Position numbers and translations under genes: made by a program. This document shows positions 5,031 to 28,744 of a stretch of DNA of 64,000 nt, piece after piece (position 1 is the first letter of the stretch; every line of letters starts with the position of its first letter). Origin of the DNA: Ignavibacteriota bacterium (GTDB lineage: Bacteria > Bacteroidota > Ignavibacteria > UBA10030 > SZUA-254); NCBI GenBank assembly GCA_025358305.1, contig JANYJZ010000003.1:186001-250000 (forward strand). The letters are read 5' to 3'. The notes beneath the pieces were generated by a model. The model was not told the DNA's origin. It searched no databases and worked only from the letters and a program-made list of their open reading frames with translations.

Positions 5031-5068
5031 CCGCAGTTTCCCATCTCCGTCCGAATTCCCTGCCGACC

Positions 5069-5219: not shown

Positions 5220-5285
5220 CTCGTTCGAACATCAAAGGGCTTTTCAGCCTCGCACCAACACCACAATAATGTAAAGGTAGAACCT

Positions 5286-5837: not shown

Positions 5838-5932
5838 GGAGGCTGCTTATCGCCTCCGGCATCATCGTGCGGGAATCCGCCGGGTGACACTCCGGCGGAT
5901 TCCCTGAGCAGAAAGAACTCTACAGAAGGTAT

Positions 5933-8119: not shown

Positions 8120-8128
8120 GATCCAGCC

Positions 8129-10222
8129 GTGCGTTCCGTTCCCGTCGACCCGAACCTGTTACGCCTCCCGACCCCGCGGGGTGGCGTGGGGATCTCACAG
8201 TTCTTCGGCGTACTCTCGCTCCTCATCGTCATGGCCGGCGTGATCCTCCCGGGTCGGGCGCAAGCACAGGAGAACAGCGACTGTCTCACCTGCCACGAAG
8301 ACAGATCGCAGCAGGGGCATCGGAAGGGGAAGGTGATCTCGGTGTTTGTCGACGCCGTGAAGTTTGCCGGCTCCGCGCATGCCTCTCTCAGCTGCGTCTC
8401 GTGCCACGCCGACCTGGAAGGGAAGGAGCTTCCCCATGAGGAAGATCTGAAACCCGTCGATTGCGGAACGTGCCACGCAACGGAACAAGCACTGCACGCG
8501 AAGTCGCTCCACGGAATGGCGATCGCACGCGGGGACGAGCTTGCCCCCCACTGCAGCGATTGCCACGGCAAACACGACATCCTCCCGGTGAAGAACAAGA
8601 ACTCCCCGGTGTATCCCCTCAACATTCCATTTCTCTGCGGCAAGTGCCACCAGGAGGGGACACCTGTCCAGAAGGCAAGGGTCATCCATCAGGACCATAT
8701 CCTTGAGAACTTCTCGGAGAGCATCCACGGTGAGGGTCTCCTGAAGAAAGGGCTCATCGTCGCGCCGAACTGCGCGTCATGCCACACCGCCCATTCGATC
8801 CTTCCGCATACCGATCCGGCCTCCTCCATCGCACGGAAGAACATCGCGAAGACCTGCACCGCCTGTCACGCGATGATCGAAGTCGTCCACCGGAAAGTGA
8901 TCAAGGGCGCGTTGTGGGAGAAGGAGGCACATGTCCTTCCTGCGTGCGTAGACTGTCACCAGCCCCACAAGATCCGCAAAGTGTTCTATGATCAGGGAAT
9001 GGCGGACAAGGACTGCATGCGGTGCCATGCGAACGAGGGTCTGAAGGCATCTTCCGACGGCCGGCCACTCTTCGTCCTCGCGGACGACGTTGCTCATTCC
9101 CGCCATGCGAAGATCGCGTGCAGTCAGTGTCACGCAGGCGTCAACGCCTCTCATGTCCGTCCTTGCGAAACGATCACGCAGAAGGTCGACTGTTCGTCGT
9201 GCCATGCGGAGGTCGGCCAACAGTACCAGAAGAGCAAGCACGGGCAGCTCCAGGCGGCGAACGATGCGAATGCGCCGACCTGCAAGGAATGCCACGGCAC
9301 GCATACGGTAAAAGGAAAGACGGACCCCCTCTCGGCGACATTTCCGACGAAGGTCCCCCTACTCTGTGCCCGGTGTCACCGCGAGGGAAACAAGGCGGCG
9401 GTGCGATACACGGGATCACAGCATCAGATCATCGAACGTTATGCCGAGAGCATTCACGGTCAGGGACTGACGAAGAGCGGCCTCACCGTCACAGCGATGT
9501 GCACAAGCTGTCACACAGCACATAGCATCCTGCCGACGAGCGACAGCCTTTCAAGCGTCAATCCCCGCAACCTTCCGTCGACATGCGGCCGGTGCCATCA
9601 CGGCGTCGAAGAGCAATTCGAAAAGAGCGTCCACTCCGTCAACATGACAAAGACGGACAAGCCGTTACCGGTCTGCAACGACTGTCATACAGCCCATACG
9701 ATCACACGCGCCGACGCGCAGGGGTTCAAATTGAAGCTCATGCAGCAGTGCGGACGCTGCCATGAGGAGATCGCAAAGACCTATTTCGACACCTATCACG
9801 GGAAGGTCTCGCAGCTCGGGTACACGAAGACGGCAAAATGCTATGATTGTCACGGTGCGCACGACATTCTTAAAGTGACCGATCCCCAGTCCCATCTCAG
9901 CCGCGAGAATGTCGTACAGACCTGCCAGAAGTGCCATGAGGGCGCGACACGCCGGTTCGCCGGCTACCTGACGCACGCGACGCACCACGACCCGGCAAAG
10001 TACCCGTTCCTTTTCTGGACGTTCTGGGGAATGACCTCGCTCTTGATCGGGACCTTCATCTTTGGCGGCATCCATACTCTTCTGTGGCTTCCCCGAGCGC
10101 TCCAGATGCGCCGGGAGCACCGCCTCAAAGCGTTACAGCCGCCACCCGCGGAAGAAGAGACCGCACCGTCGAATGACGAAACGAGCGCAACGAGCGATAC
10201 ACCAGGAGATCCAGATGCCTGA
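8129..10222 (+). CDS. 19-heme cytochrome c with C-terminal membrane anchor
   Basis: 697 residues from a GTG start with AGGAT upstream; the nearest in-frame ATG at 8231 would cut into the signal peptide (FFGVLSLLIVMAGVILP, cleavage near AQAQE). I count 19 CXXCH sites from CLTCH to CQKCH, with repeats of the unit CxxCHTAHSILPxxD, so it grew by internal duplication. One helix near the C terminus (FLFWTFWGMTSLLIGTFIF) anchors it to the inner membrane. It overlaps the following cytochrome b gene by 8 bases; the two look like a split version of the fused protein at 5933. Confidence 0.88.
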   Translation: MRSVPVDPNLLRLPTPRGGVGISQFFGVLSLLIVMAGVILPGRAQAQENSDCLTCHEDRSQQGHRKGKVISVFVDAVKFAGSAHASLSCVSCHADLEGKELPHEEDLKPVDCGTCHATEQALHAKSLHGMAIARGDELAPHCSDCHGKHDILPVKNKNSPVYPLNIPFLCGKCHQEGTPVQKARVIHQDHILENFSESIHGEGLLKKGLIVAPNCASCHTAHSILPHTDPASSIARKNIAKTCTACHAMIEVVHRKVIKGALWEKEAHVLPACVDCHQPHKIRKVFYDQGMADKDCMRCHANEGLKASSDGRPLFVLADDVAHSRHAKIACSQCHAGVNASHVRPCETITQKVDCSSCHAEVGQQYQKSKHGQLQAANDANAPTCKECHGTHTVKGKTDPLSATFPTKVPLLCARCHREGNKAAVRYTGSQHQIIERYAESIHGQGLTKSGLTVTAMCTSCHTAHSILPTSDSLSSVNPRNLPSTCGRCHHGVEEQFEKSVHSVNMTKTDKPLPVCNDCHTAHTITRADAQGFKLKLMQQCGRCHEEIAKTYFDTYHGKVSQLGYTKTAKCYDCHGAHDILKVTDPQSHLSRENVVQTCQKCHEGATRRFAGYLTHATHHDPAKYPFLFWTFWGMTSLLIGTFIFGGIHTLLWLPRALQMRREHRLKALQPPPAEEETAPSNDETSATSDTPGDPDA

Positions 10223-11060
10223 CGCAGAAGCCACACCAAAGCAATACTTGCGATTTTCACGGCTGAACAGGGTTCTTCACATCATCATGATCGTGAGCTT
10301 TATGAGTCTCGCGCTCACCGGCATGACGCTGAAATTCTCCTACACCGCCTGGGCCGGGATCCTCTCCCGCATCTTCGGAGGGTATGAATCGGCCGGATAC
10401 ATCCACCGGTTCGCGGCGGTTCTCATGTTCGGGATCTTCACCGCACACATCACGGACGTCGTCCGGATGAAGCGGAGGGAAAAACGCACGTGGCGTTCGA
10501 TCATCTTCGGCCCCGACTCGATGATGTTCAACAAGAAGGATCTCCACGACTTTACGGGATCGATAAAGTGGTTCTTTCACCAGGGTCCGCGGCCCAAGTT
10601 CGGGCGCTGGACCTACTGGGAGAAGTTCGACTATTTTGCCGTCTTCTGGGGGATCGCCGTGATCGGCTTCACGGGCCTCATGCTCTGGTTTCCCGAGATC
10701 TTCACGCTCGTCATCCCGGGCTGGTTCCTGAATGTCGCGACGATCATTCATAGCGATGAGGCGCTGCTTGCCGTCGGGTTCATCTTTACCGTGCACTTCT
10801 TCAACACCCATCTCCGGCCGGAGAAGTTTCCGATGGATATCGTCGTTTTTACCGGGCGCATGGATATCGAGGAGTTGAAGGAGGACAAGCCCGTCGAGTA
10901 CGAGACGCATCAACAGAATGGGACCCTCGGCCAGCATCTAGTGGAGCCGTACCAGCCCATTGTCATCCGGGCGGTCAAAGTGTTCGGATGGACCGCGCTG
11001 ACGCTCGGCTTCAGCATCGTGGTATGGATCATCTATGCGATGCTTTTCGCGTATCGTTGA
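10215..11060 (+). CDS. membrane cytochrome b subunit (FdnI/HydC type)
   Basis: 281 residues with about five helices. Candidate heme b ligands are in [51 protein letters not shown]. The central region ([19 protein letters not shown]) is clearly homologous to the C-terminal half of the protein at 5933 (KFGRFSYIEKSEYWALVWG). It probably oxidises menaquinol and passes electrons to the 19-heme protein encoded just upstream. ATG at 10215 follows CAGGAG and overlaps the upstream stop codon by 8 bases, so translation is coupled. Confidence 0.87.
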
Positions 11061-11121
11061 TTTTTGCATCACAAATTTGTTTATTGTGCCGACGAACTTT
11101 GCATAGATATCAGCTGAAGCC

Positions 11122-12618
11122 ATGAGACGGATCTTCCCAAATTCCTTCTACAATGTCATCACCCTCATCGGCGTGGTGATCGCGGGCATCAGCGTCGGGG
11201 TGATCGCGTTCATGGTCCTCCTCGAGGCAACCTCCGAGAACGCCAACCCGTACATGGGGATCTTCGCCTTCACGATCATGCCGATCTTCCTCGTCGCGGG
11301 TCTTGTCATGATCCCCATCGGCGTCCGCCGCGAGCACCGCCGGGAGCGCCAGGGGAAACCCCATGGGCTCCACCTCCCGGTGATCGATTTCAATAATTCG
11401 CGTCACCGGACCGCGGCGACGTTCGTCATGATCGGTTCGCTCCTCGTGGTCTCCATCATCGGCTTCACGAGCTTTAAGGCGTACGAACACACCGAATCCG
11501 ACCAGTTCTGCGGAGAAACGTGCCATTCGGTCATGGAACCCGAGTACACTGCATACCAGTTCTCTCCGCACGCGAGAGTGGGCTGCGTCCAGTGCCACAT
11601 CGGCTCCGGCGCGAGCTACTTCGTGAAGTCCAAACTCTCCGGCAGTTACCAGGTGTATGCGGTCCTCCTCAACAAGTATCCGAAGCCGATTCCGACGCCG
11701 ATCGAGAATTTGCGTCCGGCCCAGCAGACGTGCGAACAATGCCACTGGCCTAAACACTTCTTCAGCGAGAAAGAGCACACGAACAACTATTTCCTCTCGG
11801 ATGAGCAGAATACGAAATGGACGCTCAATCTCCTCATGAAGATCGGCGGCGGCAATGTGGAGGCCGGCCCCACTTCGGGTATCCATTGGCACATGAATAT
11901 CGCGCACGAGGTCACCTATGCGGCGTTGGACCGCGAACGGCAGATCATACCCTGGGTCCGGTCCCGGACGCCTGACGGGAAAGAAACGGTCTACCGGAGC
12001 ACGGAAATGGAAGTCTCCGAGGATTCGCTAAAGAAGGCCTTCACCCGGCGCATGGACTGCCTTGACTGCCATAACCGGCCGTCGCACAATTATCACCCGC
12101 CGGCACCCAGCGTGGACCACATCATGGACCTCGGGTGGATCGACCCGAAACTCCCCAGCGTCAAGAGCATCGCCGTGAAGGCGCTCGAAGGCTCGTACAC
12201 GACGAAGCAGAACGGCCTCGACAGCATCCGGCTCGTCATGGAGGCGTTCTACCGTGAGAGCTATCCCGAGGTCGCGTCGTCCAAGAAGGTCCAGATCGAC
12301 AGCGCCGTCGCGGAGGTGCAGAAGATCTTCAGCCGCAACTATTTTCCCGAAATGGGCGTCAACTGGAAGCGCTTTCCCGACAACCTCGGACACTTGTATT
12401 ATAAAGGGTGCTTCCGCTGCCACGACGGGAAGCATGTCAGCGCTGAAGGCAAAGTACTTTCCCGGGACTGCAACACATGCCACACGATCCTAGCGCAAAA
12501 ATTTGAAAAGGATACCTTGCGGATCTCGCTCGGCGGCATCGACTACAAGCATCCGGTCGATATCGGCGACGCGTGGAAAGAGATGAACTGCAGCGATTGT
12601 CATAACCCAACTGAATAA
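11122..12618 (+). CDS. NapC/NirT-family heptaheme cytochrome c (ImcH-like)
   Basis: 498 residues: three N-terminal helices (about residues 11-33, 46-67, 95-115) then a periplasmic region with seven heme sites. The first is CX3CH (CGETCHSVM), a form common in this NapC-like group; the others are CVQCH, CEQCH, CLDCH, CFRCH, CNTCH and CSDCH. The layout of three helices plus seven hemes is like Geobacter ImcH, an inner-membrane quinol oxidase used with high-potential acceptors. It is therefore a third likely quinol exit in the same operon. No good ribosome site is visible. Confidence 0.82.
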   Translation: MRRIFPNSFYNVITLIGVVIAGISVGVIAFMVLLEATSENANPYMGIFAFTIMPIFLVAGLVMIPIGVRREHRRERQGKPHGLHLPVIDFNNSRHRTAATFVMIGSLLVVSIIGFTSFKAYEHTESDQFCGETCHSVMEPEYTAYQFSPHARVGCVQCHIGSGASYFVKSKLSGSYQVYAVLLNKYPKPIPTPIENLRPAQQTCEQCHWPKHFFSEKEHTNNYFLSDEQNTKWTLNLLMKIGGGNVEAGPTSGIHWHMNIAHEVTYAALDRERQIIPWVRSRTPDGKETVYRSTEMEVSEDSLKKAFTRRMDCLDCHNRPSHNYHPPAPSVDHIMDLGWIDPKLPSVKSIAVKALEGSYTTKQNGLDSIRLVMEAFYRESYPEVASSKKVQIDSAVAEVQKIFSRNYFPEMGVNWKRFPDNLGHLYYKGCFRCHDGKHVSAEGKVLSRDCNTCHTILAQKFEKDTLRISLGGIDYKHPVDIGDAWKEMNCSDCHNPTE

Positions 12619-12628
12619 GGGATACTCC

Positions 12629-13090
12629 ATGGTAGAGACGCGGAACGCCGGCGGGCCGGAACAGCCGGGAAAGAGGGATTTTCTGAAATATGTACTGTCG
12701 GGAGGGCTTGTCGCGCTCGTCGGCTCGATCCTCTATCCGATTCTTGCATATCTCAAGCCCCCCATCCAGGCGGAGGTCGCCGTCTCGAGCGTCAAGGCGG
12801 GGAAGGTTGACGCGATGGAGAAGGACTCCGGGCAGATCGTGAAATTCGGGTCGAAACCGGTCATCCTCATCAAAACGGCGAACGATGAACTGCGTGCGTT
12901 CTCTGCGACTTGCACGCATCTTGACTGCACCGTGCAGTATAAGAAGGAGATGGGGCTCATCTGGTGCGCCTGCCACAACGGGAAGTACGATCTCAACGGC
13001 CGGAACGTCTCAGGTCCGCCGCCGCGACCGCTCGATGAATACCGCGTCACCGTCCAGGGAGGCGAGATCATGATCTCGAAGAAGTCATGA
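12629..13090 (+). CDS. Rieske [2Fe-2S] protein of a cytochrome bc-type complex
   Basis: 153 residues: an N-terminal anchor helix ([20 protein letters not shown]) and a Rieske domain with ligands in CTHLDC and CACHNG; the hinge and the [11 protein letters not shown] end are typical. It takes one electron from quinol bound at cytochrome b and passes it to a c-type heme. Its stop codon overlaps the start of the cytochrome b gene (ATGA). RDFLKY near the N terminus resembles a Tat-like signal without a clear twin Arg (KRD). Confidence 0.92.
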
Positions 13091-14166
13091 ACGGGCGGAT
13101 GAAGAAGGCCTACGACTGGGTCGATGAACGCGTTCATCTCGAGGACCTCGTCAAGTTCATGGGAAAGAAGTACGTGCCCGTTCACCGGCATTCGATCTGG
13201 TACTACTTCGGCGGCGTCTCGCTCTTCCTGTTCATCATCCAGGTGCTCACGGGGATCCTCCTGCTCCTCTACTACAAGAGCGGCGAGGAGCTCGCATTCG
13301 AGAGCATCGGGTACATCATGTCGAAGGTGCAGTTCGGCTGGCTCATCCGTTCGATCCACAGCTGGGCGGCAAATCTGTTCATTCTCTCCTCGATGGTGCA
13401 TATGTTCAGCGTCTACTTCGAGAAGTCGTACCGTAAGCCCAGAGAGATTACATGGCTCACCGGCATGCTCATGTTCTTTCTGGCCCTCGCTTTCGGGTTC
13501 AGCGGGTATCTCCTCCCCTGGAACGAGCTCGCGTACTTCGCGACGAAGGTCGGCACGGACATCGCCGGCGTCGTCCCCATCATCGGGAAGCCGATGATGC
13601 AGTTCCTCCGAAGCGGGGAGGAGGTCTCCGGCGCGACGCTCTCCCGGTTCTTCGGGTTCCATGTCGCGGTCTTTCCCGGGATCTTCACCGTGCTTCTCGG
13701 GATCCACCTGGTTCTCGTCCAGCGCCAGGGCATGAGCGAACCAATCGGGATGGAACTCCATGAGGGAAAACCCCTTAAAACGATGCCGTTCTTCCCGAAT
13801 TTTCTCCTGCGCGACCTTCTCCTGTGGCTCATCGTCCTGAACCTACTGGCCATCCTCGCGGTCTTCTTCCCCTGGGAGCTCGGAAAGAAGGCGGACGCGT
13901 TCGCCTCGGCTCCCGCGGGGATCAAGCCGGAATGGTATTTCCTTTTCATGTTCCAAACACTGAAGTATATTCCCGGCAAGATGCTCTTCATTGACGGCGA
14001 GGTCTTCGGCATCATGATCTTCGGACTCGCCGGCCTTCTCTGGATGCTCGTCCCGTTCTGGGACCTGAAGAGTTCGCGGGGGCAGCAGAACCGCCTTGTG
14101 AATTATCTCGGGCTCTTCGCGGTATTCTATATCATTATTCTCACAATCGTTGGGTGGCTGCTATGA
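13087..14166 (+). CDS. cytochrome b of a Rieske/cyt b complex (b6 and subunit IV fused)
   Basis: 359 residues. The two heme-b histidine pairs are in [15 protein letters not shown] and [17 protein letters not shown], and the Qo-site signature PEWY is present ([11 protein letters not shown]). The N-terminal half matches cytochrome b6 and the C-terminal half subunit IV, ending in a helix ([16 protein letters not shown]). It performs the Q cycle with the Rieske protein. Both borders are 4-base ATGA overlaps, so Rieske, cytochrome b and the following multiheme cytochrome are made in step, as expected for one complex. Confidence 0.93.
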
Positions 14167-15626
14167 AGACACTGAGGATGTTAGCGGCGCTCATCACCAT
14201 CATTGTTGCCCTCTCCGGCCGCGCCCTGAGCGAGGATCAGTGCCTCACCTGCCACGCCGGCCTTGGCGATAAGGAGTCGCAAGGGTACGCCCACGATATC
14301 CACAAAGCGAAAGGGATCTCGTGCGCCGGTTGCCACGGCGGCAATGCGCAGGCCGACGACATGGACAAGGGCATGGACAAGGCCGCGGGGTTCATGGGCG
14401 TTCCGCACGGCGACGACATCTCCAAGGCGTGCGCGTCGTGCCACTCGAGCCCGGAGAAGATGAAGTCATTCGGCTCAAACCTGCCGACGAACCAGTGGGA
14501 AATGCTGCAGACGAGCGTGCACGCGAAGCTCTCGACCAACGGTAATGAGCACATCGCGCAGTGCATCACGTGCCACGGCGTCCACGGCATCGTTTCGGTG
14601 AAAGATCCTCGTTCACCGGTCTACCCGCTCAATGTGGTGAAGACGTGCGCGCAGTGCCACTCGAACGCCTCGTTCATGCGGGACTACAACCCTGCCATGC
14701 CGGTGGACCAGGTGGAAAAGTACCGCACGAGCGTCCACGGTACATTGAATGCGAAGGGTGACCCGAAGACCGCCGAATGCGCCAGCTGCCACGGCAGCCA
14801 CGATATCCGTGCCGCAAAAGATGCGAAATCGCGCGTGTACGGCGTGAATATTCCGGCGACCTGCTCCGGCTGCCATTCGGACGCGGAGCGGATGAAGGAG
14901 TACAAGATCCCGACCGACCAGTTCGCGAAGTTCTCCCGCAGCGTCCACGGCGCGGCCCTTCTCCAGAAGCACGACCTTGGGGCGCCCGCGTGCAATGACT
15001 GTCACGGCAATCACGGTGCCGCTCCTCCGGGCGTCGAATCGGTTTCGAAGGTGTGCGGCACGTGCCACGCCCTGAATGCAGATCTCTTTTCCGCGAGTCC
15101 GCACAAGAAAGCCTTCGACGACCGGAAGCTTCCGGAGTGCGAGACATGCCACGGGAACCATGAGATCGTCGCGGCGACCGACAAGCTCCTCGGCGTCTCG
15201 AACGACGCAGTCTGCAGCAAGTGCCACCGCCCGGACGAGAACCCGAAGGGATACGCCGTCGCGAAGACGATGAAGTCGCTCATCGACAGCCTCGAGACGG
15301 CATCCGACACTGCCGCGAGCATCGTCAATGACGCGGAACAGAAGGGGATGGAGGTCTCCGAAGCGCGGTTCAAGCTCAGGGACGCACACCAGGCGCGTCT
15401 GCAGTCCCGGACGGCGGTCCACTCGTTTGATGAACAGAAGTTCCGGGACGTCGTCAGCGGGGGCATCGCTGTCGCCGCCGTCGTCGCGAAGGAAGGCAAG
15501 ACAGCCGTCGACGAATACTACTTCCGCCGGTGGGGACTCGGGATCGCGACCCTTATCATCTCGCTCGTCCTCGTTTCGCTCTACTTCACAATCCGCCGCA
15601 TTGAACGAAGGCAGGCTGAGAAGTAG
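14163..15626 (+). CDS. membrane-anchored undecaheme cytochrome c, partner of the Rieske/cyt b complex
   Basis: 487 residues with a signal peptide (to about GRALSE), eleven CXXCH sites (CLTCH first, CSKCH last), an alpha-helical heme-free stretch (about residues 365-455) and a C-terminal helix ([19 protein letters not shown]). Repeats of the form SVHGxLxxKGDxxxxxCxxCHGxH point to internal duplication. Its gene overlaps cytochrome b by 4 bases and stands where cytochrome c1 or f would be expected, so it is the probable electron acceptor of the complex. It is the last gene of the operon; a strong hairpin follows. Confidence 0.87.
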
Positions 15627-19550: not shown

Positions 19551-19616
19551 AATTCTCTCATTCTTTAGCGAATTTTAGGGTGTTAATTACTACATTGGTC
19601 GGAGAGTTCCTCCTCA

Positions 19617-19653
19617 TGAGAGAATAAACCCGGAACCTTCTCATTGTTGAAAA
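19617..19653 (+). repeat. 37-base conserved intergenic element, copy 1
   Basis: 30 of 37 positions match the copy at 28615-28651. Constant blocks are TGAGAGAAT, CCCGGA, CCTTC and GTTGAAAA. A CTGTTTTT block follows at 19691, as at 28700 in copy 2. Confidence 0.6.
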
Positions 19654-19754
19654 TGCTTGACAATTACCCCCTCTAATCCGCCCGTAATCGCTGTTTTTTC
19701 TGGCATTACAAATGTAGTATAACTCAACAGTAGTGACTCATTAAATCAGGATTT

Positions 19755-20972
19755 ATGACCTTTCGAGAACGGATCCTTTTGATCATGATAGCTGCTGCCG
19801 GGATCATATTTTGTGGAGACACCTCGGCTCCCGCGATTTCGATCCTGACGCCGGCGCCGGCGGATTCCGTTTCCTACGACCAGTCAAAACTCCTTATCCT
19901 CTCCGTTGAAGAACAAGCCGTCCCGAATCTCCTCGTCTCTACCCAGTGGAACATCCTGCGCTACATGGATGTTTCCCCGCTCCCCGCAAAGAAGTCCTTT
20001 CCGAAGGATTTCTATAAGTTGTTCGATTCAAAGGCGACGATCGGCCGGTTCATCTACAACTTCAAGCTTAGCACCGGCTACACGAGCCCCGAGACCCTTT
20101 CGTACTCCTACAGCGACACCATGACGATCCGGAGTCTTTGGTCGACCCCCGCCCTGAGCAAGTTTGCTCAGGCCGTGCAACCGCCGGGAGTGTTGGGCGT
20201 TGTGCTTTCGGTGACTGGATGGAAAGACAGCCTGTACGAAGCGGTGTACGACGACCCCAACGCCGATGGCCGCGCGCTCTACAAACTTCACATCCAGCTC
20301 CTCCCCGGTGTGAACCGGATCTATTTCGGGGCGGCAGCGACGAAGAATGTATCCGTCGAGTACTACGCGGAATTCAAACAGGAATTCAAACCGATCGAAG
20401 ATCGGACACGGCATTTCCATAACTCCGCGCTGGAACAGAGCTGCACGACGTGCCATGAGGGTCTTCCGAGTGCCGACAGCGGCGCGACGATGAAGGCGGA
20501 CTGCGCATCGTGTCACAAGACGTTCGCGGGTGCCGAGTTCCTGCACGCACCGGTTGAGATGAAGGAATGCGAATCGTGCCACGCCTGGTCGGCGGAGAAG
20601 AAAATGATCGTCGGCGTGAAGGCGCCCCCCGAACTCTGCTACGACTGCCACCAGGAGAAGAAGGAAGCGGTGGAGAACTCAGCATTCCCGCATCCGGTCG
20701 CGAGCGACTGCCTCACCTGCCACTCGGCCCACGGCACGAATACGAAACATCAGCTCAAAGCGGATGTCTACACCCTCTGCTCAAGCTGCCATCCGGATAT
20801 GACGGTGAACCACCCGGTCGGCAAGCATCCCGTACGGTTTGCAAAGAACGAAGTGAACGGCGAAGAGGTCTCGTGCGTGAGCTGCCATAACCCCCACGGC
20901 TCCGCCAACGAACATCTGCTGAAGGTGGGCGGCGGACGAATGATGATCTGTCTCGAATGCCATCAAAAGTGA
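19755..20972 (+). CDS. secreted octaheme cytochrome c
   Basis: 405 residues. An N-terminal signal (ERILLIMIAAAGIIFCGD, possibly a lipoprotein through the Cys) leads to about 200 heme-free residues, predicted beta-rich, then eight CXXCH sites (CTTCH, CASCH, CESCH, CYDCH, CLTCH, CSSCH, CVSCH, CLECH). The last heme site is five residues from the C terminus. The SAHGTNTKHQL and SCHNPHGSANEH blocks are typical of doubled-CXXCH cytochromes. It opens the outer-membrane conduit cluster and overlaps the next gene by 16 bases. The N-terminal domain may contact a barrel or substrate; its function is unknown. Confidence 0.85.
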   Translation: MTFRERILLIMIAAAGIIFCGDTSAPAISILTPAPADSVSYDQSKLLILSVEEQAVPNLLVSTQWNILRYMDVSPLPAKKSFPKDFYKLFDSKATIGRFIYNFKLSTGYTSPETLSYSYSDTMTIRSLWSTPALSKFAQAVQPPGVLGVVLSVTGWKDSLYEAVYDDPNADGRALYKLHIQLLPGVNRIYFGAAATKNVSVEYYAEFKQEFKPIEDRTRHFHNSALEQSCTTCHEGLPSADSGATMKADCASCHKTFAGAEFLHAPVEMKECESCHAWSAEKKMIVGVKAPPELCYDCHQEKKEAVENSAFPHPVASDCLTCHSAHGTNTKHQLKADVYTLCSSCHPDMTVNHPVGKHPVRFAKNEVNGEEVSCVSCHNPHGSANEHLLKVGGGRMMICLECHQK

Positions 20973-21817
20973 CCATACTGACACTCCTCGCAGCGCTCCT
21001 TCTGCTCGCCTCCGCCTGCAGCGCCCAGAACTATTACGAGCAGGGGATGATGAGCGGATCAGGCGTCGCGTTCATGCCGACAAGCTCCAACTCGCCGGCT
21101 GCGCAATTTCGACTGGAGATCGGCCGCATCGGATTCGCGAAGCAGAGCGGCCAAGGGCTCAATCTTTACTCGCTCAGCGCCGGTCTCTCTCCGTTCCTCG
21201 AGGCCTACGTGAAGGTGACCAGCGAACAGACCGGCATGATCCAGTCAATGAGCATCACGGGTATCGGAGGGAAGTTCACGATCCCTGTCGTGTTCCCCGT
21301 GGTGAAGATCATCTCGCTCTGGGGGGAAACGTCGGTCACGCAGACCGAGGATTTCGGCCAGCTTTATCCCGCGAACATCAGCCGCGGCGCCGTGGTGGTC
21401 ACGCCGTTCACGAATGGCTTCCGCCCCTCATTCCTCTTAGGCGCGACGAAACATGGCGACGAGGGCGTGGCGCCTATGGCGGGCGGCAGTCTCGTCGTCT
21501 CCGCGTCGCACTCCGCGCAGATCGGGCTCGAGTATCTTGCCGGATATACCGGAAAGCATTCGCATCACACGATGCTGGTCGCGAACGTCCGCGCGTTCTC
21601 GCACATCAGCCTCCATGGCGGACCGGGCTACTGGTCGACGCCGAACGTCTCCGGACTCCTTTGGTCGCTTGGTATCTCGTTCAATTCGACGGACATCGAT
21701 TTTCAACCTGCGCGGAGCGCGGAGCTCAAGCAGGGCTACAAACTTCCGTCTCTCGACGAGATCGAAAAGGAGACACCGGAAGACAAAGGCAATTCAAGCG
21801 AGGGGAAAGAGCAATGA
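20957..21817 (+). CDS. predicted outer-membrane beta-barrel or associated protein
   Basis: 286 residues with a signal peptide (VTILTLLAALLLLASACSA). The mature part is rich in alternating hydrophobic strands with Gly/Ser/Thr turns and no long helix, as in outer-membrane proteins; a charged tail (DEIEKETPEDKGNSSEGKEQ) ends it. I recognise no family. It overlaps the octaheme gene by 16 bases and the NHL gene by 4 bases, so the three are co-expressed. It may be a small barrel of the electron conduit; this rests on context. Confidence 0.65.
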   Translation: MPSKVTILTLLAALLLLASACSAQNYYEQGMMSGSGVAFMPTSSNSPAAQFRLEIGRIGFAKQSGQGLNLYSLSAGLSPFLEAYVKVTSEQTGMIQSMSITGIGGKFTIPVVFPVVKIISLWGETSVTQTEDFGQLYPANISRGAVVVTPFTNGFRPSFLLGATKHGDEGVAPMAGGSLVVSASHSAQIGLEYLAGYTGKHSHHTMLVANVRAFSHISLHGGPGYWSTPNVSGLLWSLGISFNSTDIDFQPARSAELKQGYKLPSLDEIEKETPEDKGNSSEGKEQ

Positions 21818-22824
21818 AGAAGTTTTCGATCATCGTGTTGTGCGCCGTAAGCTTGGCGTTCCTGTTCGGGGGATGCGGCGGGTCAAAGCAGTCCGAAAAG
21901 GCGATCGTGTGGCCCGATCCGCCCGATACCGCGCGGATCAAGTATATCGGGACGTACAGGAGCGAGGACCAGTTCAAGTCCTCCGTCGGTAAGAGCCTCG
22001 AGGGGCTCGGCGGAAAGAACTCGTGGTTCAGTTTCTCGCGGCCGTTCGACGTCACCGGCGATAATCACGGGCACATCTTTGTCACCGACGCGGCGCAGGG
22101 CATTTTCATGATCGACGAGAACAAGAGCGAGTTCTCGAAGATCGAATGCAAGACCTGTACGTTCAAGACGAACAACCCCCGCGGCATCGCCGCCGATTCG
22201 AACAGGATCTTCGTCGGTCTTCCGGATCTTGGCCAGGTCGTGGTCCTCTCCCATACGGGAGAACTTCTCGATACGATCGGCCGGAGAGGCACGTTCCCGA
22301 ACCCGCTCGACATCGTGCTCGACACCGTCCGGCACAGACTGTTCGTCGTGGACAACCGTCTCCATCAGGTACGGGTCTTTACCGACCACGGTGACTCGCT
22401 CTTCTCGATCGGCACCCGCGGCTACGGCGACGGCGAGTTCAATTTTCCGCAGAGCCTTGCCGTCGACAAGTTCGGCACCATTTACGTTGTTGATGCGTTC
22501 AATTTCAGAGTGGAGATATTCGATACCAACGGGACGTTTGTCCGGAAGTTTGGGAAGCAGGGGGACCGTTGGGGCGATTTCGCGATGCCGAAGGGCATTG
22601 CCGTCACCGCCGACACGAACATCTACCTCCTCGATGCACAGCACCATCATTTTCAGATCTTTAACAACCAGGGCGAACTCCTCCTGTTTGTCGGCAAGTA
22701 TTCCGCACAGAATGACGGGTTTATCAACCCGGTCTCGATGTTCATCGACAATAGGAACAGAGTGTACGTCACCGATCAGCTCAATGCTCGCGTACAGATT
22801 TTTCAGATCTTGCAAACGCAATAA
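21814..22824 (+). CDS. NHL-repeat beta-propeller lipoprotein
   Basis: 336 residues with a lipoprotein signal (LAFLFGGC, lipobox Cys at about residue 22) then WPDPPDTARIKYIGTY and a run of NHL repeats, six-bladed propeller style (repeated GxxPxGIAVxxxxxIYVxDxxxxRVQIF). NHL propellers are protein-binding or surface-scaffold domains and often lie beside multiheme cytochrome genes. The start overlaps the upstream stop codon (ATGA). It has a paralogue at 25685-26671 with the same WPxPPxxxR entry motif. Confidence 0.85.
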   Translation: MKKFSIIVLCAVSLAFLFGGCGGSKQSEKAIVWPDPPDTARIKYIGTYRSEDQFKSSVGKSLEGLGGKNSWFSFSRPFDVTGDNHGHIFVTDAAQGIFMIDENKSEFSKIECKTCTFKTNNPRGIAADSNRIFVGLPDLGQVVVLSHTGELLDTIGRRGTFPNPLDIVLDTVRHRLFVVDNRLHQVRVFTDHGDSLFSIGTRGYGDGEFNFPQSLAVDKFGTIYVVDAFNFRVEIFDTNGTFVRKFGKQGDRWGDFAMPKGIAVTADTNIYLLDAQHHHFQIFNNQGELLLFVGKYSAQNDGFINPVSMFIDNRNRVYVTDQLNARVQIFQILQTQ

Positions 22825-22908
22825 AATCCAAACGTTCTCAGTCGCCTCATGAGAGTGGGTGGATCTAAAGAAATAACGAGGCATTACAATACGAAAAAGG
22901 AGATACAT

Positions 22909-23709
22909 ATGAAACGCGCATTTACACTCCTGGCTCTTGTTCTGATCGTCGCAGTAGCGGCATTCGGTCAGGCCCAGCCGAATGGTCCCAGTCCTAATGG
23001 TACCGTTCAAGGTTCGAAATCGTTGATGATAGGCGGAGCGCATGACTTTGGTCCCGGCGGCGTCGCTGCTCCTGGAAAAGGTCAGCCGAAAGGCGTTTGC
23101 GACTATTGCCATCGCCCGCATATCATGGGCGCGGACGGACAGGCAGCCCCCCTGTGGGCCCGCAAGTCGGTCAGCAGCGGTCTGACGTACGGCGTGTACT
23201 CATCGGTCTCGATGGATGCGAACGTTGGTAACGGTCATCAGGCTCCGATCAACAACGACGATAACTACAGTGCGATGTGCCTCAGCTGCCACGATGGAAG
23301 CCAGTTCCTTTCGTCGACTGCCTACGGCAGCAACGGTACCCCGTACAATCTCGGCAATCCCTGGCCGTTTGACGGCGCTGGCGCGATCGCGATGGACAGC
23401 ACGTTCGTGTTCCGCGATGCAGGTGGCATCAATCCGAATGGCAACCTCCAGCTTTCCCACACCCATCCGGTCCACATCGACTATGACTATGCTCAGGCGA
23501 ACGACGGTCAGCTCTACGCAAAAGCCGCCGCTGGGTACGTCTATCTCGAGACCAGCCCTGCGACAAAGGCGATCGGCCGCTTGTTCAACGGCAAAATGGA
23601 ATGCTCCTCCTGCCATAACCCACACTTCAAGACGGGTATTGGTCTCCAGTCGCCCGCTTCCGCGAACGATCTGGGTGGTGCACTCTGCGTTGCTTGCCAC
23701 AAGAAGTAA
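22909..23709 (+). CDS. small secreted tetraheme cytochrome c (doubled CXXCH type)
   Basis: 266 residues with a signal peptide (FTLLALVLIVAVAAFGQA). Four heme sites: CDYCHRPH, CLSCHDGS, CSSCHNPH and CVACH at the very C terminus. Extra histidines (GGAHDFG, NGHQAP, LSHTHPVH) could serve as distal ligands. It has the best ribosome site of the cluster (AAGGAG, 8 bases before ATG) and is followed by a 14-base-stem hairpin, which suggests high expression. Its small size, four hemes and setting between propellers and barrels resemble extracellular OmcE-type cytochromes; filament formation is only a hypothesis. Confidence 0.86.
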   Translation: MKRAFTLLALVLIVAVAAFGQAQPNGPSPNGTVQGSKSLMIGGAHDFGPGGVAAPGKGQPKGVCDYCHRPHIMGADGQAAPLWARKSVSSGLTYGVYSSVSMDANVGNGHQAPINNDDNYSAMCLSCHDGSQFLSSTAYGSNGTPYNLGNPWPFDGAGAIAMDSTFVFRDAGGINPNGNLQLSHTHPVHIDYDYAQANDGQLYAKAAAGYVYLETSPATKAIGRLFNGKMECSSCHNPHFKTGIGLQSPASANDLGGALCVACHKK

Positions 23710-23734
23710 CTGCTGAATCCTGATGTAGATGCGC

Positions 23735-23771
23735 TTAATGTGCCCCGCAGCTTTTTGGCGGGGCACATTAA
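23735..23771 (+). terminator. strong hairpin after the tetraheme gene
   Basis: Perfect 14-base stem 23735-23748 with 23758-23771 (core TGTGCCCCGC and GCGGGGCACA), 9-base loop with five T. No T run follows, so it may be a partial terminator or an RNA 3' end stabiliser before the barrel gene. Confidence 0.6.
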
Positions 23772-23810
23772 GGTTATAAGGTGGAACCACTTTCGACTTG
23801 GCAAGGGGAA

Positions 23811-25469
23811 ATGAAGAGAGTCTTCACCATCGTCGCGCTGGCCGTGCTGTCGGTCTGTCCGCTCTTCGGACAACTGGGTTCGTTTGGTGGCAATGTGAGC
23901 TATGTCCACCAGTACTCAGAGGACTCCTACCACGGATCACTGTCGACCACGCAAAGCCGCAACCCGACCATTGACCTTCAGGCGTCGGGGATCATCCTCA
24001 CGCATGAACTTGCCGAATTCGAGTTTCAGTCCTACTTCACCCAGAACTCCTTCACGTCTAAATCCTTCGGCCCGACGCTTGATTTTGAGACGCAGAACTG
24101 GACGATCTACCGCTTCAACCTTTCCCTGATCCAATACAGCCCCTGCTGGATCCTCCTGCGTGCGAACGACGGATACGTCAAATCCCGAGGCGAATACGGG
24201 GATGCATCCAGCACTGTCGGACGCGTGCGCTCCCAGAGCCAGGAGATGACCGTTTCGCTCCGAAAGATCGAGTTTCTCCCGACGATCACGCTCGACTATA
24301 ACCGGTCGCATGCGTGGGCCACCGAAGGGTTTATCACGAACAACAAGATCGAGTCATACACGGCCTCCGCAGCATCCTCGAACGGGAGCACAACGTTCAA
24401 CATCACCGGTCAGAACACGCGGACCGAGGACCTCGTCTCGGGGTCTGTGAACAAATTCTCGTCGGCCGGCGTCAACGGCACGAAATCCTTTGATGACGCC
24501 CATTTCGTGAACATCCATTCGGAGTATACGTGGTTTGAAACCACCGGTTTGCTCTACGGCGACCTTTCCTACACCGGCTCCTTGAGCAGCAGCGCGGTCC
24601 TCATGACGGGGCTGAACCTGTCCCAAGCCACATCCCCCCATGCGACCACGACGAACCTTTCCGTCTCTGCGAACGTCAACCAGACCCTCAGCCCGGAGTG
24701 GAGATACACCGCCATGCTCGGGGAACAGTATAACAAGCAGGTCATGCCGCTTGCGTTGCCGCCGGTCGAGTCCCGGAACACGTGGAGATCGGGAGGGACG
24801 GTTTCACACCAGCAGACGTTTGGGGTGAGCTCGATGTCGAACTCCCTCTCCGTGAACGGCGAATGGGCGAACAACTCCGAGCAGTCAGGCGCGTATGGGT
24901 TCGGATTCGGCAACGGCTATTCTACCAAGTTTGAGGCCGTCACGCTGCGGATCAACCAATCCTCCTCCTTCGCCGACCAGCGGCGCGCGCGCGCGCATCA
25001 ATTCCGGGCGGTACACCGGATCAATCTCGGAGTGGACGCCAAGCTCGCAGACCGGATCTCGAACATGACCAATGTCGCGTTCACAAGCAACAGGAGTCAG
25101 GGAGAACTGGAGGGGAGCTATTCGACCCGGACGGTCAGTCTCCTCGATGCGCTCTATGGAAGCTTCAATTATGTCATCCCGTTCACCATCGGCGCAGGAT
25201 TTTCCTCCACATGGTACCAAGGCGATGTGAACGGTACAGCCTACGGCTGGAACGGAACGTTCAACAGCGCCAGGTTCTTCACCGATCGCCTTTCTGCTCG
25301 CTACCGGTATTCGAGGACTTATGACGTGAACTACCGCATGGAGACGATTGAACATCTCGCCCAGTTCCACTACGGCTGGCGGGTCGTCGACCTGTCGCTC
25401 TCATTGTATGAACGAAGATTGGGCACCCGGCAGCGGACGATTACATTTGCCGTCTCTCGTCCGTTCTAG
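23811..25469 (+). CDS. outer-membrane beta-barrel protein (porin-like, conduit candidate)
   Basis: 552 residues from the ATG preceded by AAGGGGAA; signal peptide FTIVALAVLSVCPLFGQ. The whole mature protein consists of amphipathic strands with aromatic belts, and it ends in Phe (FAVSRPF), the BAM recognition form for outer-membrane barrels. The length suits a barrel of 20 or more strands, like MtrB/PioB or porin-cytochrome conduits, but I do not see a clear family signature or CXXC. Lying between the tetraheme and an NHL protein, it likely lets a cytochrome cross the outer membrane. Confidence 0.75.
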   Translation: MKRVFTIVALAVLSVCPLFGQLGSFGGNVSYVHQYSEDSYHGSLSTTQSRNPTIDLQASGIILTHELAEFEFQSYFTQNSFTSKSFGPTLDFETQNWTIYRFNLSLIQYSPCWILLRANDGYVKSRGEYGDASSTVGRVRSQSQEMTVSLRKIEFLPTITLDYNRSHAWATEGFITNNKIESYTASAASSNGSTTFNITGQNTRTEDLVSGSVNKFSSAGVNGTKSFDDAHFVNIHSEYTWFETTGLLYGDLSYTGSLSSSAVLMTGLNLSQATSPHATTTNLSVSANVNQTLSPEWRYTAMLGEQYNKQVMPLALPPVESRNTWRSGGTVSHQQTFGVSSMSNSLSVNGEWANNSEQSGAYGFGFGNGYSTKFEAVTLRINQSSSFADQRRARAHQFRAVHRINLGVDAKLADRISNMTNVAFTSNRSQGELEGSYSTRTVSLLDALYGSFNYVIPFTIGAGFSSTWYQGDVNGTAYGWNGTFNSARFFTDRLSARYRYSRTYDVNYRMETIEHLAQFHYGWRVVDLSLSLYERRLGTRQRTITFAVSRPF

Positions 25470-25684
25470 CCGCCGCGAATGACAGAGCGCATGGAAACAA
25501 AACATCATACCGATTGCAACACTCTCTGCAATCCCCTTGCCAGAGAGAATCGGGCTGGAGCCGCCCGGAGTGTTCGGGCGCTCCAGTTCCGATTGATCGC
25601 GCCGGGGAATCGGGGATATGCCGTTCTTCGGCTTGATTGGCAGAGATTTTCTTTGTATCGTTCGTTTGTTCTTTTGCGGTCACA
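25470..25684. other. structured intergenic region
   Basis: No gene seen. It holds an inverted repeat CTCTCTG/CAGAGAG (25522-25528, 25541-25547) and a strong hairpin (25555-25586) without a T run. Confidence 0.5.
25555..25586 (+). terminator. GC-rich hairpin between barrel and NHL genes
   Basis: CTGGAG, bulged C, CGCCCG pairs with CGGGCG, CTCCAG around a 7-base loop. The lack of a T tract leaves open a terminator, an attenuator or an mRNA processing role. Confidence 0.45.
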
Positions 25685-26671
25685 ATGATGCGTACTGCTC
25701 TTATTATCATCTTGTTCTGTCTGGTCTCCCAAGCCTCCGCCGGAGATCACCCCGATTCGCTGGTTTGGCCCGGGCCTCCCGCACGTCCGCGGCTGCGGCA
25801 CATCGTGACGCTCTCCTCAGCCGAGAGTTTTCAGCAGGAGGGCGGCACACTCTCAAAGATATTCAAATTCTTCTTCGGTGGAGAACGGTCGACCCCCTGG
25901 CTCGTGCAGCCGGTCGGGATCGCCGTCTCCGGGAATGGGATCATCTACGTCGCCGACCCCGGCGCGAAGGGGGTTCACCGCATTGATGAGCGTGAGAAGA
26001 AGCATGCCTTTGTCATGGCGGCGAAAAACGGCGACTACCGGTCGCCGGTCGGCATCGCCTGCGCCCAGAACGGAACGGTCTACATCTCCGATTCGGAGGC
26101 GGGGATCGTCGTCATTGCTGACGAGGATCTCGATGCCAAGGGCGTCATCAAGGAGCACCTCGTCCGACCGACGGGCATGTGCATCGTGCATGACACGCTC
26201 TACGTCGTCGATACCGGAAAACATAAGGTCGTCCGGTTCGACCTGGAAGGGAAGTATCTGGGAGAATTCGGCGAGCGGGGGGTGGGAGAGGGACAGTTCA
26301 ATTATCCGGTGCAGATCGTCGGCAGAGACGAGCTCTGCGTCGTCGATGCGCTGAACTACCGGGTGGAGCTGTTCAGCCTCGGCGGGACGTTCCAGCGTTT
26401 ATTCGGCAGGCAGGGCAACGCCATCGGACGGTTCGCCAGTCCGAAAGGCATCGCACTCGATTCCGAAAATAACATCTACGTCACCGACGCGCTCCTCAAT
26501 AATCTACAGATCTTCAACCTTCGGGGGGAGCTTCTCCTTTCCGTCGGCCAGGAAGGTACGCACAACGGTCAGTTCGAGACGCCGAACGGCATCGCCATCG
26601 ACGTGAACGATCGGGTCTATATCGTCGACACACTCAACAAACGGGTCCAAATCTTCCAATACCTCAAATGA
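25685..26671 (+). CDS. secreted NHL-repeat beta-propeller protein
   Basis: 328 residues with signal peptide (TALIIILFCLVSQASAG), then WPGPPARPRLRHIVTL and NHL repeats with YVADPGAKGVHRID, YVVDTGKHKVVRFD, YVTDALLNNLQIF and YIVDTLNKRVQIF. It is a paralogue of the lipoprotein at 21814 but lacks the lipobox Cys. Start may be 25685 or 25688. The stop codon overlaps the start of the next cytochrome gene (ATGA), so the propeller and the dodecaheme are made together and may bind each other. Confidence 0.85.
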   Translation: MMRTALIIILFCLVSQASAGDHPDSLVWPGPPARPRLRHIVTLSSAESFQQEGGTLSKIFKFFFGGERSTPWLVQPVGIAVSGNGIIYVADPGAKGVHRIDEREKKHAFVMAAKNGDYRSPVGIACAQNGTVYISDSEAGIVVIADEDLDAKGVIKEHLVRPTGMCIVHDTLYVVDTGKHKVVRFDLEGKYLGEFGERGVGEGQFNYPVQIVGRDELCVVDALNYRVELFSLGGTFQRLFGRQGNAIGRFASPKGIALDSENNIYVTDALLNNLQIFNLRGELLLSVGQEGTHNGQFETPNGIAIDVNDRVYIVDTLNKRVQIFQYLK

Positions 26672-28587
26672 CAATGTATCCGCATCGTGGTGCACGCATG
26701 CTGTTCCCGCTCCTCCTCCTCGCGGCGGTGATGCAGGGGTCGGCGGTGGCACAGACCTCCCCCGGATTTTCGACGATGACAAATACGAAGCACAATCTCA
26801 GCACCACCGGGCCCGGGCCGCTGAAAGCGGCGACGGAAACGAACCTCTGCGTCTTTTGCCACACCCCACACGTGCCTACTGGATATACGGCGGACCAGCT
26901 CTGGAATCATGAGCTCACCACTTCGACCTACGAACTGTATTCGAGCGACTATCTCACCAACCTAAATTACGCCGCGCCGAACCAACCGAATCCCCGGTCC
27001 AAACTCTGCCTCTCGTGCCACGACGGGACGATCGCCCTCGGTGCCGTCTACAACAACGGCGGGAGCGGCATGACGATCCAGATGGACAACAGCGTCACGG
27101 CGATCCCGGCGAGCGCTCCCGGCAATATTGGCACGTCCCTCGCGAATGACCACCCCGTCGGGTTTGTCTACGACAACGGCCGGGACCCTGAGCTCGTCGG
27201 ACGGCAGTGGCCCTGGAACACGCCGGTGAAGCTCGATCCCGACATCGCAAGCGGAACGATCGAATGCCAGACCTGCCACGACCCGCACGACAACACGAAC
27301 TCGAAGTTCCTGAGGATCTCGAACACGAATGCCGCGCTCTGCACCTTCTGCCACAACAAGTCGGGATGGTCGGACGCAGCGCACAAGACCTCGACGCAGG
27401 CGTATACGCCGACGGTCCAGGCGGGAACGACGGTTGGTGAATGGGCCTGCCGCAGTTGCCATACTTCGCACAACGGCGAGGGTGTCCCGTATCTCCTGAC
27501 GAAGGTCGAAGAGAAGACGTGCTATGAGTCCGGGTGCCACGGAAGCGCCAGCACCGGATTGAATACAAAGAACATCGAGACGGTGATGGAAAAGCAGTAC
27601 GCCCATCCGACGAACACTGTCGTCGGACAGCACAAGGATCCTGATGTCACCACAAGCCTCGACGTGTCCCACCGGCATGCCGAGTGCCAGGACTGCCATA
27701 ATTCCCATTGGGCAAAAAAGGGCCTTCATACGGTCGGATCGAATGCTGTCTCGGATGTCCTTCAGGGCGTCCAAGGCGTTGTGCCGACGTTCACCGGCAA
27801 CTGGCAGCAGCCGACGAGCTTTACGAACATCAAGCCGGCTGTTCAGGAGAGTCAGCTCTGCTTCAAATGCCATTCCTCGAATGCATTCGGCATCGTTGCC
27901 AATGGCGTGACCACCATTCTCACGTCGTCCGGGATCAAGAGCACCGATCAGGCGATGGAGTTCAGCCCCGCCAACCGCTCGGCACACCCCGTAGTGTCGG
28001 GTCTCGGCAGCCAGACCGGCTCTTTGTCGCCGAGGAACCTCGATCCGACGCAGATGACCGCAGAATGGGCCACAACTGGCAGCCAGACGATGTATTGCTC
28101 CGACTGTCACGGCAATGACGAAACGACGTCACAAGCGAGCCCGCAGGGGCCCCACGGTTCGACGAGCAGATATATGTTGACAGGGAAGGGCCAGTTCTGG
28201 CCGACGGGCCGGAACGGCGACCTCTGGTCCCTTGCCGACATTAAGAACAATACGACCGACTGGCAAAATGAGCTCCTCTGCGCAAACTGCCATCCGATGA
28301 TGAGTGGAGGGAAGTTTCTCAACGCCGCCCACGACGGCTCCCACCACCAGATCGCTGATGTCAAATGCATCACGTGTCACGTGGCCGTTCCCCACGGTGC
28401 ACAGCGTTCGCGCCTCATCGGGTACGGGTCCGACGTGGCGCCGTACAATTACAACGGTGCAGGCCTATACGAAAAACTCATCGTTAGCGGATTCCGCAAA
28501 GGCGCGACGCCGCTTGATTACGATAAAACGAGCTGCTCGGATAATGGCGTTTGCCATGGTCCCCAGCCGGGGCCGTTCGAGCCGTAG
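26668..28587 (+). CDS. large secreted multiheme cytochrome c (10 CXXCH plus CX4CH and CX5CH)
   Basis: 639 residues with a signal peptide (MLFPLLLLAAVMQGSAVAQ). Ten CXXCH sites (CVFCH, CLSCH, CQTCH, CTFCH, CRSCH, CQDCH, CFKCH, CSDCH, CANCH, CITCH), plus CYESGCHG (CX4CH) and, near the end, CSDNGVCHG (CX5CH), giving up to 12 hemes. The N-terminal CVFCHTPH, CLSCHDGT and HPVGFVYD order resembles the small tetraheme at 22909. It is the last gene of the conduit cluster and a candidate terminal, surface-exposed cytochrome. Whether the two odd motifs bind heme cannot be told from sequence. Confidence 0.86.
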   Translation: MTMYPHRGARMLFPLLLLAAVMQGSAVAQTSPGFSTMTNTKHNLSTTGPGPLKAATETNLCVFCHTPHVPTGYTADQLWNHELTTSTYELYSSDYLTNLNYAAPNQPNPRSKLCLSCHDGTIALGAVYNNGGSGMTIQMDNSVTAIPASAPGNIGTSLANDHPVGFVYDNGRDPELVGRQWPWNTPVKLDPDIASGTIECQTCHDPHDNTNSKFLRISNTNAALCTFCHNKSGWSDAAHKTSTQAYTPTVQAGTTVGEWACRSCHTSHNGEGVPYLLTKVEEKTCYESGCHGSASTGLNTKNIETVMEKQYAHPTNTVVGQHKDPDVTTSLDVSHRHAECQDCHNSHWAKKGLHTVGSNAVSDVLQGVQGVVPTFTGNWQQPTSFTNIKPAVQESQLCFKCHSSNAFGIVANGVTTILTSSGIKSTDQAMEFSPANRSAHPVVSGLGSQTGSLSPRNLDPTQMTAEWATTGSQTMYCSDCHGNDETTSQASPQGPHGSTSRYMLTGKGQFWPTGRNGDLWSLADIKNNTTDWQNELLCANCHPMMSGGKFLNAAHDGSHHQIADVKCITCHVAVPHGAQRSRLIGYGSDVAPYNYNGAGLYEKLIVSGFRKGATPLDYDKTSCSDNGVCHGPQPGPFEP

Positions 28588-28589
28588 CC

Positions 28590-28631
28590 CCGGGCCCGGC
28601 CATATTCTCATGGTTGAGAGAATGGGCCCGG
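28590..28631 (+). terminator. long hairpin directly after the conduit operon
   Basis: CCGGGCCC (28590-28597) pairs with GGGCCCGG (28624-28631) and ATTCTC (28604-28609) with GAGAAT (28618-28623), starting 3 bases after the stop codon. Confidence 0.55.
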
Positions 28632-28651
28632 ATCCTTCACAGAGTTGAAAA
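28615..28651 (+). repeat. 37-base conserved intergenic element, copy 2
   Basis: Second copy of the element at 19617-19653 (30 of 37 identical). Here it overlaps both hairpins and lies about 80 bases upstream of the sigma54-like promoter at 28730. Confidence 0.6.
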
Positions 28652-28664
28652 ACTCTGCCCTTTT
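28640..28664 (+). terminator. rho-independent terminator, GAAA tetraloop
   Basis: CAGAGTT (28640-28646), loop GAAA, AACTCTG (28651-28657), then CCCTTTT. A second, tandem stop signal for the conduit operon. Confidence 0.7.
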
Positions 28665-28729
28665 ATCCCCCCGACTCCCCTAAAATAACCCCAAACCCTC
28701 TGTTTTTACACCCCTGCCCGCTTCCATAG

Positions 28730-28744
28730 TGGCACGGAGGTTGT
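28730..28744 (+). promoter_or_regulatory. sigma54-like promoter of the ccmD-like/usp genes
   Basis: TGGCACG-N4-TTGT: perfect -24 block, -12 block with T instead of C. Predicted start near 28756, inside the palindrome at 28746-28761. Confidence 0.6.

Follow-up and report, generated by a model that had tools for sequence, protein, structure and literature searches.

A Uet-like multiheme cytochrome operon encoding an OmcE homologue and a predicted 28-strand barrel in an Ignavibacteriota bacterium

Introduction

The undecaheme electron transfer (Uet) pathway of Candidatus Tenderia electrophaga and Gallionella comprises the tetraheme cytochrome UetA, the peptidyl-prolyl isomerase (PPIase) UetB, the beta-barrel UetC, the triheme cytochromes UetDEG, the NHL proteins UetHI and the undecaheme cytochrome UetJ (PMC10734462). 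A separate literature deals with nanowires built from OmcE, in which one heme is ligated by the adjacent subunit (PMC12954529; PMC12203936). The secretion, assembly and electrical joining of cytochrome nanowires to the respiratory chain have been described as unresolved (PMC12307469). Texts that mention both OmcE and an undecaheme protein draw no link between them in the portions available, the primary Uet and OmcE-structure papers lying outside the search. Here an operon is described that ties the two together. It occupies positions 19755 to 28587 of a 64,000-nucleotide stretch (referred to as the window) of contig JANYJZ010000003.1, from an uncultured Ignavibacteriota bacterium (Bacteroidota line; assembly GCA_025358305.1). 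It is fairly probable that the operon specifies a Uet-like extracellular electron-transfer system equipped with an OmcE-type wire, and that it specifies an outer-membrane conduit of some kind can be held with considerable confidence.

Organization of the operon

The operon consists of seven co-directional genes, whose extent agrees with a preliminary description of this DNA:

19755-20972, plus strand: A8, octaheme c-type cytochrome, 405 amino acids
20957-21817, plus strand: B1, small predicted outer-membrane beta-barrel, 286 amino acids, 12 predicted strands
21814-22824, plus strand: N1, NHL beta-propeller, probable lipoprotein
22909-23709, plus strand: C4, tetraheme cytochrome homologous to OmcE, UetA-like, candidate subunit of a nanowire
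23811-25469, plus strand: B2, large predicted outer-membrane beta-barrel, 552 amino acids, 28 predicted strands, UetC-like family
25685-26671, plus strand: N2, second NHL beta-propeller, predicted to be secreted
26668-28587, plus strand: C12, undecaheme cytochrome, UetJ-like, start possibly at 26698

The overlaps noted in that description were measured as 16 nucleotides for A8/B1 and as four nucleotides (ATGA) for both B1/N1 and N2/C12, and the gaps are 84 nucleotides between N1 and C4, 101 between C4 and B2, and 215 between B2 and N2. The N2/C12 overlap presumes that C12 begins at its first ATG; a start at 26698 suits the signal peptide equally.

Relationship to the Uet pathway

The preliminary description likened the cluster to porin-cytochrome and OmcS/OmcE-type loci, and the relationship to Uet went unrecognized. 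It becomes apparent through a locus of a Chromatiales metagenome-assembled genome (MAG), L091, whose genes run in the Uet order, with a tetraheme at 148-1053, a PPIase at 1169-2227, a barrel at 2255-4000, then trihemes, two NHL genes (7867-8886 and 8715-9962) and an undecaheme (9959-12304). Its tetraheme, barrel, NHL and undecaheme proteins were all recovered with the profiles or queries used here, the C12 profile matching the undecaheme at 241 bits (E 7e-72) and the C4 profile the tetraheme at E 1e-39. The operon shares with Uet an undecaheme, a tetraheme, a dedicated beta-barrel and two NHL proteins; it differs in the addition of A8, with an N-terminal domain of no known family, and of the 12-strand B1, and in that the window undecaheme clade lies with those of Nitrospirota and Campylobacterota. 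On gene content and profile matches, the operon is Uet-like and not a member of Uet.

C12 possesses ten CXXCH motifs and one CX4CH motif (CYESGCH), the latter invariant across nine homologues. Heme counts of eight, four and up to 12 had been proposed for the three cytochromes; those of A8 and C4 stand, whereas the best count for C12 is 11, because the candidate twelfth site, a terminal CX5CH (CSDNGVCH), is unconserved, its CH being lost in L011, L028 and L030. The 24 invariant histidines of C12 are sufficient for 11 bis-histidine hemes. Residues of about 17 to 226 make up an OmcE-like tetraheme module (E 4.7e-37 against 7tfs), downstream of which lie seven further heme sites. In the undecaheme tree the window group joins sequences of Nitrospirota, Campylobacterota and Aquificota (99/93; root unfixed), apart from those of other Bacteroidota, Ignavibacteriota and Chlorobiota, a placement that suggests movement of the gene between phyla.

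The OmcE homologue

C4 carries four CXXCH motifs. A profile of its homologues matches the OmcE structure of Geobacter sulfurreducens (PDB 7tfs) over the full length (profile positions 8-243; E 2.4e-45). Another multiheme cytochrome of solved structure, 9yuq, is matched at 7e-40, and the single sequence likewise finds both, at about 1e-11 to 1e-12 (7tfs at E 2e-11). Eight candidate heme-ligand histidines, four within the CXXCH motifs and four others, are kept in all homologues that span them, and these align with histidines of OmcE. Judged by these matches C4 is a full-length OmcE homologue, and the profile searches identify UetA-type proteins as OmcE homologues. The likeness to OmcE-type systems drawn earlier thus applies to C4 and to the N-terminus of C12, whereas the likeness to OmcS does not: the C4 profile reaches OmcS only at E 0.23, and an OmcS-type filament was rejected on that account. 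C4 differs from OmcE in being co-encoded with a barrel, propellers and an undecaheme that itself holds an OmcE module.

Polymerization of C4 into a filament, as its relationship to OmcE would allow, is an evenly balanced prospect. The same genes could form a porin-cytochrome conduit without a wire, in which A8, B2 and C12 would carry the electrons and C4 would serve as a monomeric shuttle or surface cytochrome. The resemblance of A8 to MtrA and the predicted width of B2 fit such a conduit, and polymerization is not proven by OmcE homology alone; against it, C4 and the first module of C12 keep all of the histidines shared with OmcE, including the inter-subunit ligation set, and C4 is duplicated beside an extra NHL gene in four relatives, as would fit a structural subunit. 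A conduit lacking a wire is regarded as a possible account, short of a probable one.

The two barrels

Both of the barrels that had been predicted were modeled as such by AlphaFold2. The B2 model has 28 strands, with a predicted local confidence (pLDDT) of 90.1 and a predicted template-modeling score (pTM) of 0.67, and the B1 model has 12 strands (pLDDT 69, pTM 0.64). Simple barrel geometry gives Cα diameters of 49-56 Å for 28 strands, 45-52 Å for 26 and 21-24 Å for 12. Provided that it forms one closed barrel, the modeled B2 could accommodate a heme chain. B1 as modeled is too narrow for hemes and was rejected as a second heme conduit; of the two barrels proposed earlier for the conduit, the structure prediction supports B2 and not B1.

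The structural neighbors of B1 include KdgM, NanC and FapF, and it has no match in Pfam or NCBIfam. In the VIA-align comparison MtrB (6r2q_B) takes the top row for B2 (Z 18.5, 406 residues), tied with FhuA and other TonB-dependent receptors, among others; given this tie the fold supports no family claim for B2, and membership in the MtrB family, for which no family model matched, was not adopted. No Pfam or NCBIfam model matched B2 and its relatives, nor any of seven barrels scanned from its wider family, and the barrels are without a sequence match in the PDB. The earlier statement that the barrels match no family therefore holds for searches of these three collections and fails for B2, which belongs to a family that they do not catalogue, one found beside undecaheme, NHL and tetraheme genes in the Uet layout. 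A profile of this family matches the L091 barrel at 9e-25, B2 proteins of the window group at up to 3e-14 and the window B2 alone at 5e-6. Profile-profile comparison (hhalign) of B2 with the barrel family of other phyla gives 99.1%, set against 4.2% for a reversed-profile control and 1.8% for a B1 control. By these matches B2 belongs, as a divergent member, to a barrel family without a catalogue entry, which is found alongside undecaheme homologues in at least 13 phyla.

It may be asked whether B2, or B1, is instead an export pore for the wire, with C4 polymerizing outside, the NHL proteins acting as export chaperones and C12 as an anchor. A barrel usually adjoins the OmcE-like gene, the 28 strands of B2 exceed the 26 of MtrB, related clusters are accompanied by PPIases, and nanowire secretion is described as unsolved (PMC12307469). 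The amyloid exporter FapF is among the structural likenesses of B1, yet it is one of several equal matches, and FapF-like export through B1 was rejected for this reason. Most clusters, moreover, keep a periplasmic-type MtrA-like, pentaheme or triheme cytochrome beside the barrel, as a conduit would, and an export pore is considered unlikely.

The octaheme cytochrome and the NHL propellers

A8 has eight CXXCH motifs and matches Paired_CXXCH_1. Among solved structures it best matches chain A of 6r2q, the Mtr complex (profile E 2.3e-17), a chain taken here as MtrA since the molecule name printed for the chain is evidently mislabeled. The C-terminal hemes are MtrA/DmsE-like; A8 scores 71 bits against the DmsE family (TIGR03508), under the cut-off of 192, and has eight hemes, not the ten of MtrA and DmsE. 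The conserved N-terminal domain of about 200 residues (residues of about 25 to 215) has no Pfam or NCBIfam match.

N1 and N2 are mutually related and match PF01436 (E 2e-17 and 5e-24, respectively), in accordance with the two related propellers first described, although "paired" proves too modest a term, five relatives having three NHL genes. The cysteine at the end of the N1 signal peptide recurs in homologues, some with a canonical lipobox, and on this basis N1 is a probable lipoprotein.

Conservation and distribution

Relatives within the family and the order keep the gene sequence A8-B1-N1-C4-B2-N2-C12 on every contig of sufficient length, and this agreement between independent genomes rules out chance. 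Among 60 close genomes 11 carry B1; across the order, B2 was matched in 11 of 98 genomes, once weakly and in part. Identity to the window proteins is 21-35% for the fast-evolving B1 and B2 and 40-60% for the slower A8 and C12. An extra NHL gene follows B2 in L011, L026, L028, L029 and L030, and in all of these except L026 it is followed by a second tetraheme; across relatives' loci there is a tendency for every OmcE-like module to adjoin an NHL gene of its own. In another relative, L031, a tetratricopeptide-repeat gene (4079-6187) lies between B2 and N2, at the site of the others' extra NHL-tetraheme pair.

Beyond these relatives, 84,980 species genomes were scanned with the C12 profile, and 79 undecaheme loci were kept among the matches listed. 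These numbers are lower bounds and no census, and since many of the loci are on short contigs the gene counts are minima. An NHL gene lies immediately upstream of the undecaheme in 65 of the 79 and in the neighborhood in 70; an OmcE-like tetraheme is found in at least 49, a barrel of one common family in at least 64, and all three together in at least 47. The loci represent at least 13 phyla, as identified by record title and tree position: Pseudomonadota, Nitrospirota, Campylobacterota, Aquificota, Acidobacteriota, Myxococcota, Planctomycetota, Thermodesulfobacteriota, Verrucomicrobiota, Bacteroidota, Ignavibacteriota, Chlorobiota and Calditrichota. Two Geobacteraceae loci (L065 and L050) have a full module of 13-heme, tetraheme, NHL, pentaheme, barrel, NHL and undecaheme genes, which is present in Geomonas paludis strain Red736. 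MAGs of Thiobacillus and Sulfurimicrobium (L046, 5235-8705, and L047, 5523-8585) encode a 24-heme protein with an OmcE-like match just upstream of the undecaheme.

This distribution bears on the notion that the operon encodes a periplasmic propeller-cytochrome respiratory enzyme, its barrels being unrelated porins. NHL propellers are sometimes enzymes and B1 is like small sugar porins, but barrels of the B2 family keep the same partners in 64 of the 79 loci, and B2 itself is part of the operon in all relatives with contig coverage of the site, which leaves a respiratory enzyme very improbable.

Comparison with other electron conduits

With the Mtr complex (MtrA-MtrB-MtrC) the operon shares MtrA-like hemes (in A8), a wide barrel and an outer multiheme cytochrome. 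It differs in that B2 has 28 predicted strands versus the 26 of MtrB and matches no MtrB-type family model, that A8 has fewer hemes and falls under the DmsE cut-off, and that C12 has no MtrC/OmcA-family match. Porin-cytochrome (Pcc) clusters (OmbB-OmaB-OmcB of Geobacter, and that of Ignavibacterium) likewise combine a barrel with a periplasmic octaheme and an outer multiheme cytochrome of about 12 hemes; they were compared by description only, and the part of the description available mentions no NHL genes. Multiheme cytochromes stand beside NHL proteins in Desulfovibrio ferrophilus DFE_0448-0464 (PMC9769857) and beside propeller proteins in the propeller/PPIase/cytochrome operon of the bacterial partners of anaerobic methanotrophic archaea (PMC5539420), as they do here. 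The propellers of those clusters are NHL or six-bladed and their cytochromes outer-membrane-associated or secreted; in these clusters too, compared by description only, the difference is that a conduit porin is unrecognized.

A model for the operon

The model is built on computed features (gene content, conservation, OmcE homology, heme and ligand counts, strand numbers, barrel family and promoter conservation), from which we infer localization, complex formation, polymerization, the roles of the propellers and B1, and the direction of electron flow. Electrons would cross between the periplasm and the outside via a heme chain within the 28-strand B2. A8, with its MtrA-like hemes, would likely form the periplasmic side and plug, feeding or draining this chain, and C12 would be its outer terminus. 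From the OmcE-like N-terminal module of C12 an OmcE-like filament of C4 would grow outward, C4 docking to C12 through inter-subunit histidine ligation as in OmcE filaments. The NHL propellers may be extracytoplasmic scaffold or assembly proteins, one per OmcE-like module, and B1 may be an accessory barrel. The outer-membrane conduit first proposed is upheld by the composition of the operon, the predicted width of B2, the MtrA-like A8 and the recurrence in at least 13 phyla, with B1 removed from it.

A more specific and still tentative version is that of a "wire socket", whereby the OmcE module of C12, seated on the heme-filled barrel, would nucleate an OmcE-type nanowire as either donor or acceptor of the inter-subunit histidine, with one NHL propeller per module as an assembly factor.

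Several points weigh against a Uet-like system with an OmcE-type wire. The likeness to Uet is drawn from the published gene list and L091 rather than from reference UetA-J sequences. A PPIase (UetB) is absent among the seven genes of the operon and present in L091, L036 and L041, and the trihemes (UetDEG) are absent as well, with the octaheme A8 instead. C4 may remain monomeric. The pTM of B2 is 0.67, closure into a single barrel is assumed, and MtrB ties with TonB-dependent receptors in the modeled fold.

Control elements and surroundings

The following elements flank the coding region:

19613-19698, plus strand: direct repeat, 5′ copy, with a core at 19618-19640, GAGAGAATNNNCCCGGANCCTTC
19701-19715, plus strand: sigma-54-type (-24/-12) promoter, TGGCATTACAAATGT
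28590-28657, plus strand: two hairpins in tandem, probably a terminator or an element for 3′ processing; overlaps the 3′ repeat copy
28607-28707: direct repeat, 3′ copy, with a core copy at 28616-28638

The eight loci compared all have a TGGCAY-N5-WTGY sequence at the same position ahead of A8 (L025 has GTGC as its second element). Sites of the -24/-12 type number five in the window versus 0.56 expected; besides the promoter, two such sites are located at 2370-2384, ahead of a HemN-like gene (2466), and at 28730-28744, downstream of the operon. A pair of NtrC and PAS-kinase genes lies about 19 kb upstream of the operon, whose expression is probably activated through a sigma-54/NtrC system. In six relatives (L011, L012, L024, L026, L027 and L029) a histidine kinase with a single CXXCH is encoded upstream of A8, adjoining an NtrC-type regulator in most of them; this kinase, possibly a heme-based redox sensor, is not present at the corresponding place in the window.

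The terminal hairpins, already remarked upon, have a folding energy of -34.1 kcal/mol (z -4.2), and the second was also found by a terminator scan. The direct repeat brackets the operon on both sides. Exact copies of its 23-nt core are confined, within the 3.2-Mb genome, to these two positions; the repeat may be the scar of an insertion or may serve regulation. That the operon was inserted recently is possible: the flanking repeats speak for it, whereas the base composition, equal to that of neighboring DNA, and the absence of a comparable repeat from five relatives examined speak against it.

Between the NtrC/PAS-kinase pair and the operon are genes for multiheme-cytochrome b fusions, a NapC/NirT-type cytochrome, a Rieske protein, cytochrome b, CcmF and HemA. 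The stretch 5190-15626 contains the multiheme cytochromes, fused to or accompanied by cytochrome b, the NapC/NirT-type cytochrome, the Rieske protein and cytochrome b, and these plausibly, even probably, constitute quinone-linked inner-membrane partner complexes for the conduit. The direction of flow enters here, since the system could instead take electrons in, by oxidizing Fe(II) or by drawing on a cathode or a partner cell. Uet has been described in cathode- and iron-oxidizing bacteria (PMC10734462; PMC13386937); on the other side, direction is not given by sequence, and quinol oxidation would fit the multiheme-cytochrome b modules upstream at least equally. Electron uptake is conceivable without being the expected mode.

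Implications

The operon combines a predicted wide barrel and NHL propellers with a homologue of OmcE and with an undecaheme containing an OmcE module. This set recurs in at least 13 phyla, which turns the attachment of wires to cells into a testable question. The sequences tie the OmcE-filament and Uet-conduit literatures together, draw attention to a barrel family outside the catalogues and define a set of proteins for structural work. If true, the wire socket would be a general answer to how OmcE-type nanowires connect to the cell.

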